Of a stretch of 64,000 nt of DNA, positions 33,611-36,720 are shown piece after piece. The translations under genes were made by a program, and so were the position numbers. Every line of letters begins with the position of its first letter. Position 1 is the first letter of the stretch. Source of the stretch: Muribaculum gordoncarteri (lineage in GTDB: Bacteria > Bacteroidota > Bacteroidia > Bacteroidales > Muribaculaceae). A model generated the notes under the pieces. It did not search any database and was not told where the DNA came from. It saw only the letters and a program-made list of their open reading frames with translations. The stretch is taken from contig NZ_CP039393.1 in NCBI RefSeq assembly GCF_004803695.1, forward strand, positions 930,001-994,000, written 5' to 3'.

Positions 33611-33649
33611 AAAGACTGCCGATGAGGATTCCCCTCGCCGGCAGTCTTT
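33611..33649 (+). terminator. Rho-independent terminator after the GH43 gene
   Basis: An 11-bp stem (33611-33621 with 33639-33649), apical partial pairing, then a T-rich tail (TTTTGTTTAT). Confidence 0.82.
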
Positions 33650-33669
33650 TGTTTATATGCACCCTGTAC

Positions 33670-33793
33670 TTAACCGCGGGTTGGCCGTAGGCCTACCCGT
33701 GGACGCGAACGACCCCTCGTCCCTCAACACTTTGCGGGTTGCACCCCATGCACCAGCAACCTCTGTCCTCCAACTCGGCACTAACCCGGGTAA
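33670..33793. repeat. GC-rich structured intergenic element with imperfect terminal inverted repeats
   Basis: About 124 bases, much richer in G and C than the AT-rich gap around it. The ends are TTAACCGCGGGTT (33670-33682) and, inverted, CTAACCCGGGTAA (33781-33793). An internal hairpin CGGGTtGGCC-gta-GGCCtACCCG covers 33677-33699. No coding frame with a start is seen. It resembles a dispersed REP/MITE-like sequence, but copy number cannot be tested here. Confidence 0.4.
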
Positions 33794-34008
33794 TATTCAC
33801 CCCTATCCATTTGTTACATACGAAACATAACGCTCAATCCTCGCCTCGGCATAACACACTATCCTCAAGCCCATTACCACAACCCTGCAAAATATCTGCG
33901 AAATGCGATTTGTAACATTTTTCATTTGCGAAATATTTGCGCAATCGAAAATTTGGATATTAAAGCCAATTTAACTCTCTTTGCAGAAACAAAAAAATCA
34001 CTCCGTAT

Positions 34009-34110
34009 ATGAAAAAAATACAAGCACGATTATCATTCTGTCAAGAATCTGTCAAGGCCCCCAAAATGAACTTGTCAAGGATTTGTCAAGGAAAAAATTT
34101 GCGAAGATAA
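34009..34110 (+). CDS. Mini-ORF 1 of the iterated module array
   Basis: 33 codons from ATG 34009 (MKKIQARLSFCQESVK…) to TAA 34108-34110. It follows a promoter-like pair by 25 bases. The 3' half is made of the two TGTCAAG repeat units, which read as SFCQES and SRICQGK. The stop lies between the -33 and -7 boxes of the next module. It may be a short leader peptide, a decayed gene start or simply the transcribed form of an operator. No family is recognised. Confidence 0.35.
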   Translation: MKKIQARLSFCQESVKAPKMNLSRICQGKNLRR

Positions 34111-34148
34111 CCCCATTTAACTTCATTTGCGGAAAAAATTAAACACAA

Positions 34149-34277
34149 ATGATAACAACTGCAATCCCGCGCCTCACGGCTTATCAACTAACACCAAGCA
34201 AGTTAAGCCGATTTTGCGAATTTTTGCGAAATTCACAATTGTTAAATCTTAAGCTTTGCGAATTTTTGCGAAATTGA
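34149..34277 (+). CDS. Mini-ORF 2 of the iterated module array
   Basis: 42 codons from ATG 34149 (MITTAIPRLTAYQLTPSK…) to TGA 34275-34277. The second half contains the TTTGCGAATTTTTGCGAA unit twice, which reads as CEFLRN repeated, the second copy being the very end of the peptide. It has the same position relative to the promoter boxes as mini-ORF 1. Translation is not proven. Confidence 0.35.
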   Translation: MITTAIPRLTAYQLTPSKLSRFCEFLRNSQLLNLKLCEFLRN

Positions 34278-34330
34278 AAACTTGCAAATATAAACAACGA
34301 TTCATTCCTTTGTATGCAAATAAAACGACA

Positions 34331-34486
34331 ATGAAACCATTCATCCCATTTTCAACACCCCGAAGCATGATGTTGAATTATATGATTAATCATCAGCGCA
34401 ATAACTATCAGCATGCACACTTTTTGCACACTGCCGGAATAGCTCATGTGCAAAATGCACACTTTTTGCACACTGAAAAATTTTGA
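34331..34486 (+). CDS. Mini-ORF 3 of the iterated module array
   Basis: 51 codons from ATG 34331 (MKPFIPFSTPRSMMLNYMI…) to TGA 34484-34486. The end carries the TGCACACTTTTTGCACACTG unit twice, read as AHFLHT repeated. The stop overlaps the -33 TTTG of module D. An ORF reading further upstream from 34256 runs through the previous operator and is not preferred. Confidence 0.35.
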   Translation: MKPFIPFSTPRSMMLNYMINHQRNNYQHAHFLHTAGIAHVQNAHFLHTEKF

Positions 34487-34581
34487 TTGATAAACTTATT
34501 TTACTCCCTTTGCAGCAATAAAAAACTTCAACCTGTATGAAAAATTCATCACTATTATTGATTATATGATTTTCATTCATC

Positions 34582-36720
34582 GTGTCGTGTCTGCTGATGT
34601 GCGACCTCCATGCTTCGGGCAACGCCTCACCCCGACAAATTAGCCTCGCTCCCGCCGACTCGGTGAATGTTGACAGCATAAAGCCCGCCGTGTCGCTCGA
34701 TGAGGTAACGGTCGAGGCAAGCACGATAAGCCACCGAGGGACTCGCGACTCCTATATGATAACACAGGATATGAAGCGGGGACTCAGGACGGCCGGCGAG
34801 CTACTGATGCGGGTCAACGGGGCTTTCTACAACCCGGTGAGCCATGATCTCACCTATCTCGGGTCGAGCAACATCGTGCTCCTCGTCGACAGCATTGAGC
34901 GCGGAGCCGACTACATAAAGCGGCAGTCGCCCAACCGCTTCGACCGCATCGATGTGGTGCACCAGCCCACGGGAAAGTACTCGGGCTACGACGCGCTCAT
35001 CAACTTCCACACGCGCCCCACCTACCGTGGCTCCGAGTTCAACATCGGTGGCAACACGTGGATACGCCCCGACGGTGTAAACGGACGGGGAAGGGACTTC
35101 AACAAGACGAGTCCGTGGGCCGACTTCACCTACACCGAGGATAAGTGGAACGTGCAGGCCGACGCCTCATGGCAATGGGAACAGTCGGGAATGTCGACCT
35201 ACACCACCAGGACATTCCCGCTCAACAACTACGAGGAGCGCATGCTTGAGCAGGACCCCAGGGATCCCACCGACTTGATGCGCCGCCGCAGTCTGGCTCT
35301 CGAAACTGCTGTCGACTACCGCATAAACGACAGGCACATAGTGTCGGCGCTGGTTGGCGTAAGCACCACCGGTTTCGACCGCACGCTTAAAAGCCGAATG
35401 GTCACCGGCAACATCAACTCGGTGCTGCGCGACACCATCGGACACATATCGCGGTTGATTGAGAACAACTACCTCGGATGGGCGTTCGGAATATATCACC
35501 GTGGCCTTGTGGGCAAGTGGAACATAAACACCTCGCTCACCTACAACACATCGGCATGGGACTACAAGCGCAACGTGTCGCGCACGAGCGGATACTCGGT
35601 CGACGACCTGCGCCGCAAAAGCTCCGATTATTTTTGGGGCAACTTCAGCGCCTACCGAACGCTCTTTGGCGGCAAGGCGGGACTCGACCTGTCGGAAACA
35701 TTGCTTTCGATGGACTACAAGGAGAAGCGCCTCGGCACCGATATCGTGTTAAGCAACAACTCGGTGATAAGCAGCACAACCTACGCATCGCTGCAGTACT
35801 TCCCGTCAAACAAGCTGTCGCTGACCGCCAATGTCGGAGTGTTTGTGTACCACAACAGCGAGGGCGACACCCACACGACGAGCGTAAAGCCGCGACTTCA
35901 GGCCAACGCATTCTGGCGCCCGAGCAAGAAGTTTGTGACACAGCTGGTGTATAGTGCAAGCTCGTCGAGCCCCAACCTCATACAGATGTCGGGCTACGGT
36001 CAGTTCACCGATTCGCTGGAGTACCAGTCGGGCAATCCGTCGCTGAAGGCCACCACCACCCACAGCGTCATGCTCAACCTCACGTTCTTCAGCTCGCTCA
36101 CGCTGTCGACTACATTCACCCACGGCGACGGCTCCATCTACGACATCACCGAGGCTGCCTACATGAACGGAACTTCCGGCGAGCGCATTCCCTATGCCGT
36201 CACCATTCCCGAAAATGGACATTTCAACCAGTGGAAGTTCCGCATCAACTACAACAAGAGGTTCTCCGACAGGGTGGAGAGTGCACTGGCCGGGTCGCTC
36301 ACCGGAACCACGGCGCGTTACATGAACTACCGACGCGAGAAGTGGATTCCCACAGCCGACTGGTACATGATCTACCGCGTGGCCCCTATAGCGATGGACT
36401 GTGTACTCAGCTACGGAATAATCGGAAGCAGCACTATCACTCCTCAGTCGCGCTATTGGGAGTTGCGCGACGGATTCGGATTAGCCCTGCAGAAGAACTT
36501 CCTTAACAACCGACTGCAGTTATCGGTATTGTGGAGCCCCGACATACACTTCATGCCGGGCAAGGCACACACCTATCGCTACTCGCCCGCGCTCAACACC
36601 GTGGGATGGAGCGATGCGAATTTCCGCTCCAACAACATGATAAATTTCTACATAGCCTACCGGCTTGCCCGGGGCAAAAAGGTGCGCAACTACAAACATC
36701 AGACACATATAGTTGAATAA
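34582..36720 (+). CDS. TonB-dependent receptor-like outer-membrane protein; signal peptide interrupted by a stop codon
   Basis: The longest open stretch (712 codons) starts at GTG 34582. The natural start is ATG 34537: MKNSSLLLII, then TGA (34567-34569), then FSFIVSCLLMCDLHASG in the same frame, together a good signal peptide. From 34582 alone the signal lacks its positively charged start. Mature protein: plug-like region (VTVEASTISHRGTRDSYMIT, VLLVDSIERGADYI, IDVVHQPTGKYSGYDALINF at about 35-145), then a large barrel ending FYIAYRLARGKKVRNY. It would import a ligand in a TonB-dependent way if made. Coding sequence is markedly GC-rich compared with the flanks. Without read-through or restart it is a pseudogene. 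Confidence 0.75.
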   Translation: MSCLLMCDLHASGNASPRQISLAPADSVNVDSIKPAVSLDEVTVEASTISHRGTRDSYMITQDMKRGLRTAGELLMRVNGAFYNPVSHDLTYLGSSNIVLLVDSIERGADYIKRQSPNRFDRIDVVHQPTGKYSGYDALINFHTRPTYRGSEFNIGGNTWIRPDGVNGRGRDFNKTSPWADFTYTEDKWNVQADASWQWEQSGMSTYTTRTFPLNNYEERMLEQDPRDPTDLMRRRSLALETAVDYRINDRHIVSALVGVSTTGFDRTLKSRMVTGNINSVLRDTIGHISRLIENNYLGWAFGIYHRGLVGKWNINTSLTYNTSAWDYKRNVSRTSGYSVDDLRRKSSDYFWGNFSAYRTLFGGKAGLDLSETLLSMDYKEKRLGTDIVLSNNSVISSTTYASLQYFPSNKLSLTANVGVFVYHNSEGDTHTTSVKPRLQANAFWRPSKKFVTQLVYSASSSSPNLIQMSGYGQFTDSLEYQSGNPSLKATTTHSVMLNLTFFSSLTLSTTFTHGDGSIYDITEAAYMNGTSGERIPYAVTIPENGHFNQWKFRINYNKRFSDRVESALAGSLTGTTARYMNYRREKWIPTADWYMIYRVAPIAMDCVLSYGIIGSSTITPQSRYWELRDGFGLALQKNFLNNRLQLSVLWSPDIHFMPGKAHTYRYSPALNTVGWSDANFRSNNMINFYIAYRLARGKKVRNYKHQTHIVE

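Follow-up and report, generated by a model that had tools for sequence, protein, structure and literature searches.

A stack of operator-promoters before an outer-membrane receptor gene of Muribaculum gordoncarteri and a possible address code of membrane-spanning regulators

We analyzed a 64,000-nucleotide stretch of the genome of Muribaculum gordoncarteri (RefSeq assembly GCF_004803695.1, contig NZ_CP039393.1, positions 930,001 to 994,000), which we call the window and whose own positions are used below. The window contains an array of four promoter-like modules at 33897-34539, located 5' of one outer-membrane receptor gene. Why does a single receptor gene stand behind four such modules, each of which has a repeat in front of its promoter? 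The explanation that we somewhat favor is that four operator-promoters of one family of membrane-spanning regulators are stacked here and would feed the one receptor. The repeat, which varies from module to module, acts in the manner of an address, each version being meant for another regulator.

Four modules with one geometry

All four modules lie on the forward strand. Module A (33897-34011) possesses the half-sites TGCGAAA at 33927 and TGCGCAA at 33938 together with a lone TGCGAAA at 33897, followed by TTTG at 33952 (-33), TTTG at 33980 (-7), and an ATG at 34009. In module B (34039-34151), TGTCAAG at 34039, 34050, 34073, and 34084 precedes TTTG at 34098, TTTG at 34126, and an ATG at 34149. 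Module C (34215-34333) has TGCGAA at 34215, 34225, 34257, and 34267, CTTG at 34281, TTTG at 34309, and an ATG at 34331. Module D (34414-34539) has TGCACAC at 34414, 34425, 34456, and 34467, TTTG at 34482, TTTG at 34509, and an ATG at 34537. A first-pass annotation of this DNA had described four modules of two repeat units each. The four modules are indeed present, and B, C, and D each carry two half-site pairs, but A has a single good pair and the lone TGCGAAA.

Three clearly distinct addresses (TGCGAA, TGTCAAG, and TGCACAC) are found in the array. The half-sites are undamaged, TGTCAAG and TGCACAC each being present in four identical copies. Within a pair, the half-sites are spaced by 11 bases in A, B, and D and by 10 bases in C, and the distance between the pair sets is 34 bases in B and 42 bases in both C and D, which corresponds to about three or four helical turns. 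The 7/7 pairs at spacing 11 had 12 start positions within 33880-34540, compared to 2 in all other parts of the 64 kb.

In each module, the -7 TTTG starts exactly 42 bases downstream of the first base of the last half-site. The chance of finding TTTG at 42 or 43 was 0.010 for A, 0.024 for B, 0.015 for C, and 0.034 for D, and the product of these four values is about 1e-7. The second TTTG (CTTG in module C) starts 27-28 bases upstream of the -7 TTTG. These results bear out the key observation of the first-pass annotation, namely that the repeat sequence varies while the promoter layout stays constant, and modules A and D also align in the start region as it had claimed (alignment z 15.9). Its statement that an ATG follows each promoter has to be amended for module C, in which the first ATG past the TTTG is that at 34314 (6 codons) and not that at 34331.

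The receptor frame extends from 34537 to 36720 on the forward strand. Its product matched the Pfam family OMP_b-brl_3 (PF14905) with 45.8 bits (cut-off 27), and no match to other Pfam families was obtained at E <= 0.1. When we looked for inverted repeats of the kind that border an invertible (phase-variable) promoter, one perfect 11-base inverted pair (34359-34369 / 34609-34619) was seen to flank D and the receptor start, and the longer inverted pairs are 71-92% complementary. On the upstream flank, a hairpin at 33611-33649 (17 bases, 88% complementary) followed by TTTTG is located directly after the upstream gene. It is perhaps the terminator of that gene and was not flagged by the terminator scan.

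The regulator family and its recognition code

The geometry described above recurs behind genes of regulators that are predicted to consist of a tetratricopeptide repeat (TPR) part, one membrane helix (TM), and a C-terminal helix-turn-helix (HTH) domain. We defined this TPR-TM-HTH operator-promoter family in the present analysis. The regulators were searched for in 297 family genomes with at most 4 candidates scored per genome, and therefore some regulators were missed. Behind the gene, 23 of 32 regulator loci (three of them from the window's own genome) had a 7/7 repeat at spacing 11, and any other spacing from 6 to 40 occurred in at most 3 of these loci. Among the named loci (80 loci, 77 of them long enough for the spacing scan), the spacing-11 repeat was present in 43/77, as compared to 7/77 in the 250 bases upstream that served as the control. 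Spacing 12 was also elevated (18/77 named loci and 17/90 merged loci), and the upstream control gave 13/77 at spacing 22. When the loci were merged and de-duplicated, 50 of 90 had the 7/7 repeat at spacing 11 after the stop codon of the regulator, against a shuffled expectation of 1.65, and spacing 10 occurred in 7. A further 71 loci gave 38 with spacing 11, the next best spacing being found in 9 loci.

The TTTG recurs at the same place. In the TG-type loci of the merged set, it was found at 42 or 43 in 22 of 33 (at 42 in 12 and at 43 in 10), whereas about 0.4 loci are expected per position. All four modules of the array have paired direct half-sites at spacing 10-11 and TTTG at 42-43, as this family does; a regulator gene directly upstream, which is also common in the family, was not seen at the array in the six-frame list for 28-40 kb. 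Taken comprehensively, we are highly confident that the array modules belong to the TPR-TM-HTH operator-promoter family, and their repeats are very probably read by regulators of this fast-diversifying family.

The records bearing such regulators are labelled Bacteroides, Phocaeicola, Prevotella, Xylanibacter, Mediterranea, and Muribaculaceae. By simple rules, a hydrophobic stretch that could form a membrane helix precedes the HTH in 27/27 regulators of one alignment (A3), and a lipobox-like motif is present in 13/23 of the A3 regulators that start with M. The TPR part may thus be periplasmic. The C-terminal 110 residues of a Bacteroides regulator were modelled as seven helices with a mean predicted local distance difference test (pLDDT) score of 96.7. 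A second operator class, in which a direct pair is followed by its inverted copy (e.g., TTACGG..TTACGG / CCGTAA..CCGTAA) and the helices are of the type SRRE.L, was seen at L074, L076, L079, L082, L083, L085, L086, and other loci.

As for the genes behind the regulators, the first one encodes a DUF3244 protein in 33/70 named loci, the genes being assigned by a simple rule. The regulator clusters of the window's own genome include GLPGLI proteins and outer-membrane receptors. They also contain what we take to be a Cys-rich small peptide, radical SAM-like proteins, and a peptidase-ABC-like transporter; the clusters at 2743 and 2749 kb are those in which we assume small Cys-rich peptides and radical SAM-like proteins. 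Of the 31 receptor matches listed, three are no more than 8 kb away from a listed regulator. One of these follows its regulator by 848 bases in G088, and the other two are in G002. These data link the receptor type modestly to the TPR-TM-HTH regulators.

What part of the regulator specifies the half-site? We started from 58 TG-type operators, of which 40 had the correct geometry and 29 remained after de-duplication at 80%. Over these 29 loci, 460 pairs of a protein column and a half-site base were tested, and the two best pairs were both in the recognition helix. Base 3 was associated most strongly with helix residue 8 (z 8.8), followed by base 5 with helix residue 4 (z 7.9), and protein columns beyond the helix reached z 4.9 at most. 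When residue 4 was E, base 5 was C in 7/7 cases. The other pairs were D with C (1/1), S with A (8/8), T with A (2/2), and N with T (2/2), while Q went with T in 3/4 cases and with G in the fourth. Single cases were V with T, K with G, and A, M, and C each with A.

Some loci in this test are related, and three have the helix start HSESSVSL in common. In leave-one-out prediction from regulators of at most 60% identity, base 5 was correct in 18/19 and base 3 in 20/23 cases, and 0 of 2000 shuffles was as good. With a limit of 50% identity and the geometry filter, the values were 14/16 and 18/21 (1 and 2 of 2000 shuffles as good), and without the geometry filter (42 loci) they were 31/36 and 31/38. 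The best explanation of these values is that each regulator would have its own half-site, set at least by helix residues 4 (for base 5) and 8 (for base 3).

Regulators of this genome and the reading of the array

A search of the genome with a profile built from 27 relatives detected three close regulators, at 784 kb, 2743 kb, and 2749 kb, with 571-608 bits, the next match having 66 bits. No regulator gene was seen by eye in the six-frame list for 28-40 kb, and the profile search of the genome gave no match in the window. When the array DNA was searched against its own genome, module C resembled the promoter behind the regulator at 2749.9 kb (79% over 94 bases), and the promoter of module D with the first codons behind it resembled the site at 784.3 kb (74% over 116 bases). 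The 2743-kb regulator gene is followed by three TGCGCAC pairs. We also aligned the promoters over the span that opens with the last operator pair and closes with the start codon. With the 784-kb promoter, module A gave z 19.6 and module D z 20.4, compared to z 9.1 for D with the 2743-kb promoter. Module C gave z 15.1 with the 2749-kb promoter, and module B aligned weakly (z 5.9 with A and 5.2 with D).

According to the code, module C fits the regulators with S at residue 4 and S at residue 8 (784 and 2749 kb), module A fits the same regulators in one half-site, and module D fits the regulator with E at residue 4 and S at residue 8 (2743 kb). The operator of D is identical to that behind a regulator of another genus (L063). 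Module D looks like a TGCACAC operator placed on a promoter of the 784-kb type, as if the address had been swapped and the promoter kept.

Several other features of this genome were observed. The three regulators (L020 8440-10182; L021 7031-8800 and 13997-15733) share an overall identity of about 45% but are nearly identical in the first ~127 residues, a pattern that would arise if homogenisation kept the N-terminal part alike and the remainder diversified. A dispersed intergenic repeat at window positions 33665-33702 (TTAACCGCGGGTTGGCCG..CCCGTGG) has copies at 8 other listed places in the genome, and three of these directly precede the 784- and 2743-kb regulators. At 784 kb, the DUF3244 gene that follows the regulator (L004, about 1530-1570) lacks an ATG where one is expected and reads ATTATAAAAAAG there; its listed start is a TTG located further upstream. 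More distant TPR-HTH-like genes adjoin other OMP_b-brl_3 receptors at 1292-1296 and 1694-1703 kb (L116 and L117), without 8/8 spaced pairs.

A regulator gene is commonly followed immediately by its own promoter, and from these sequences we infer the following course of binding and activation. The HTH domain would bind one pair of half-sites, or at least two such pairs, and these half-sites would lie on one face of the DNA because they are spaced by 10-11 bases. Once bound, the HTH would assist RNA polymerase at the weak TTTG promoter that lies 42-43 bases further on. In the array, four such promoters in tandem with no regulator gene beside them would give an OR-type input to one receptor. A and C would be targets of the regulators at 784 and 2749 kb, D would be the target of that at 2743 kb, and B may answer to a regulator that was lost or has not been recognised. 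If the stack continues to function, the array would be a multi-input promoter, for which we see about an even chance. The first-pass annotation had proposed, among other things, an assortment of alternative promoters before one surface protein, and this fits, since the modules share the geometry of regulator-linked operator-promoters.

The addresses appear nearly private to each regulator. In its own genome, the TGCACAC pair occurs twice, both times in module D. Of the TGTCAAG pair loci outside the array, L016 was inspected; the genome has one such site, on the reverse strand at 3281.7 kb, in a hairpin without a promoter. The exact TGTAAAG pair was found in 4/13 genomes, always behind a regulator, plus one extra site without the geometry. 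All 7 genomes in which the exact TGCACAC pair was sought contain it at one or two sites. Second TGCACAC sites with the right geometry lie inside the cluster in G414 and G415, and those at L290, L291/L296, and L294 lack it. In G023, a TGCACAC site with the right geometry lies 237 kb from the regulator, before a gene of a 284-residue protein with a secreted-like start, and thus unlinked targets exist. A plasmid search with the array gave no match. A comparison of 15 PF14905 receptor loci within this genome gave the array as the sole operator-like case; one further spaced repeat at L096 and two at L101 were set aside as unlike. These loci span 1500 bases before the matched domain, and therefore some promoters lie outside. 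The architecture does recur elsewhere as a single layout behind regulators in many loci, but no second array was found in 40 relatives.

Several results weigh against the reading of the array as a stack in use. The search with the array DNA in the 40 relatives matched its own genome only. In 397 family genomes, the TGTCAAG pair was present in 10, and more than one pair occurred only in the window's genome. Module B calls for a regulator with S at residue 4 and a residue other than S at 8, and none of the three regulators has this combination. The second half-site of A has C at base 5, and the D operator TGCACAC differs from the TGCGCAC of the 2743-kb regulator by one base per half-site. The code itself performed poorly in a hold-out with the rule fixed beforehand (base 5 correct in 3/5 and base 3 in 2/2). 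This hold-out comprised 73 loci with 8 usable TG-type operators and had low power because many of its regulators have helices of the type SRRE.L. For the 784-kb regulator the code predicts TGC, and its own operator is TGTAAAA. In addition, promoters read by the housekeeping sigma factor of Bacteroides have the consensus TAnnTTTG at -7 and TTTG near -33 (PMC7366714). The first-pass annotation had assigned -33 and -7 boxes to each module; TTTG is retained at -7 in all of them, but the boxes are weaker than it claimed, the TA of TAnnTTTG being reduced to its first base. Because TTTG is present and the A of TA is absent, the promoters look weak and activator-dependent. Finally, the fourth ATG (34537) cannot be taken as the receptor start as had been proposed. 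It is in frame, but codon 11 is a TGA (34567-34569) that falls within the would-be signal peptide, and the frame is open from a GTG at 34582 for 712 codons.

This in-frame TGA after 10 codons makes a decaying locus the main rival. That is, the modules could be remains of one family, left by the loss or recombination of regulator clusters beside a dying receptor and without present function. The orphan address B and the lack of a regulator at the locus agree with such decay, and the homology of D to the 784-kb promoter extends into the opening codons of the following gene, as recombination would leave it. On the other hand, all four modules have preserved both their half-sites and the 42-base geometry, and the receptor frame is otherwise open, and therefore decay would have to be recent. 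In view of the in-frame stop and the orphan B, we regard this explanation as unlikely but deserving real weight.

It is much less probable that the stack titrates regulators as decoy sites, or serves as a source of short RNA, with the receptor not being the target. Unlinked sites with the TTTG geometry do occur, and behind A-C only short frames are found. However, receptor relatives lie behind such regulators elsewhere, and the terminator scan detected no strong terminator between the modules on the forward strand, but only one weak candidate at 34447-34461 (both strands: 2 candidates vs 1.1 expected). The least probable explanation, to which we give hardly any credence, is a nested cascade, in which each small open reading frame (mini-ORF) would be translated and its product or its translation would control the next module. 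Behind A, B, and C, mini-ORFs of 33 codons (34009-34110), 42 codons (34149-34277), and 51 codons (34331-34486, read off the sequence) exist on the forward strand and extend through the repeats of the following module, as the first-pass annotation had noted. Their lengths are nevertheless those of chance: in shuffled sequence of the same composition, the three longest ORFs average 53, 41, and 33 codons, and the third-longest has at least 33 codons in 44% of shuffles. A length beyond chance, as would mark an upstream ORF or leader peptide, was thus not found, and we dropped the mini-ORFs as a functional element. Moreover, the first ATG of module C is a different one, and the first gene behind regulator-linked promoters is often that of a small DUF3244 protein.

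We return to the proposed stack of regulator-dependent promoters. In a broader and more tentative proposal, which we think may well not hold, the Bacteroidales would possess a large family of membrane regulators that rapidly change their code and have near-private operators readable from two helix residues, and this receptor would combine several of these addresses in series. Its combinatorial promoter would then answer several otherwise insulated peptide- or bacteriocin-type systems. The analysis yields an address code, open to testing, for envelope regulators whose genes neighbor those of secreted DUF3244 proteins and clusters resembling those of ribosomally synthesized and post-translationally modified peptides (RiPPs). 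If it is true, the targets of a regulator would be predictable from its protein sequence, nearly insulated regulator-promoter pairs could be used in gut commensals, and stacks like this array would show the joining of separate circuits at one receptor.

Comparison with known systems

The BT3442 family TPR protein (NCBIfam NF053779) is named after a gene beside a MACPF gene of B. thetaiotaomicron (PMC2954219). Two of our regulators, as queries lacking part of the N-terminus, matched NF053779 with 54.4 and 27.5 bits against a curated cut-off of 940. The likeness consists of this weak match over most of the searched pieces and of the position of a TPR protein beside genes of secreted proteins. 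The accessible part of that paper deals with protein interaction and TPR motifs and describes neither an operator nor binding to DNA. For Bacteroidales, TPR-domain genes have been reported from two RiPP clusters, with a proposed role in the control of expression (PMC10352776), and in the portion of that paper at hand no operator, promoter geometry, or recognition code is described.

The HTH domain of the regulators has weak sequence matches to the LuxR/FixJ type (PdeL, E 0.016; RcsB, E 0.77). Pfam GerE (PF00196) gave 13.0 bits for one of two regulators, below the cut-off of 23.5, and the 25 families listed for a set of 27 regulators do not include GerE. In a full-text collection that lacks most subscription papers, we found no account of the regulator-operator pairing or of such a stack, which does not prove novelty.

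CadC, ToxR/ToxS, and VtrA/VtrC are fast-evolving membrane one-component or co-component regulators, some of which have neighbouring targets (PMC9214523). They share with the present family a membrane span, a cytoplasmic DNA-binding domain, and a periplasmic part, which in the present family would be the TPR part. The HTH of CadC is N-terminal, whereas that of the present family is C-terminal behind the TPRs. Unlike the CadC/ToxR/VtrA type, the present family has a private repeat for each regulator that covaries with the recognition helix. Membrane one-component regulators are already known (PMC9214523), and what is new to us is the readable code together with the promoter stack.

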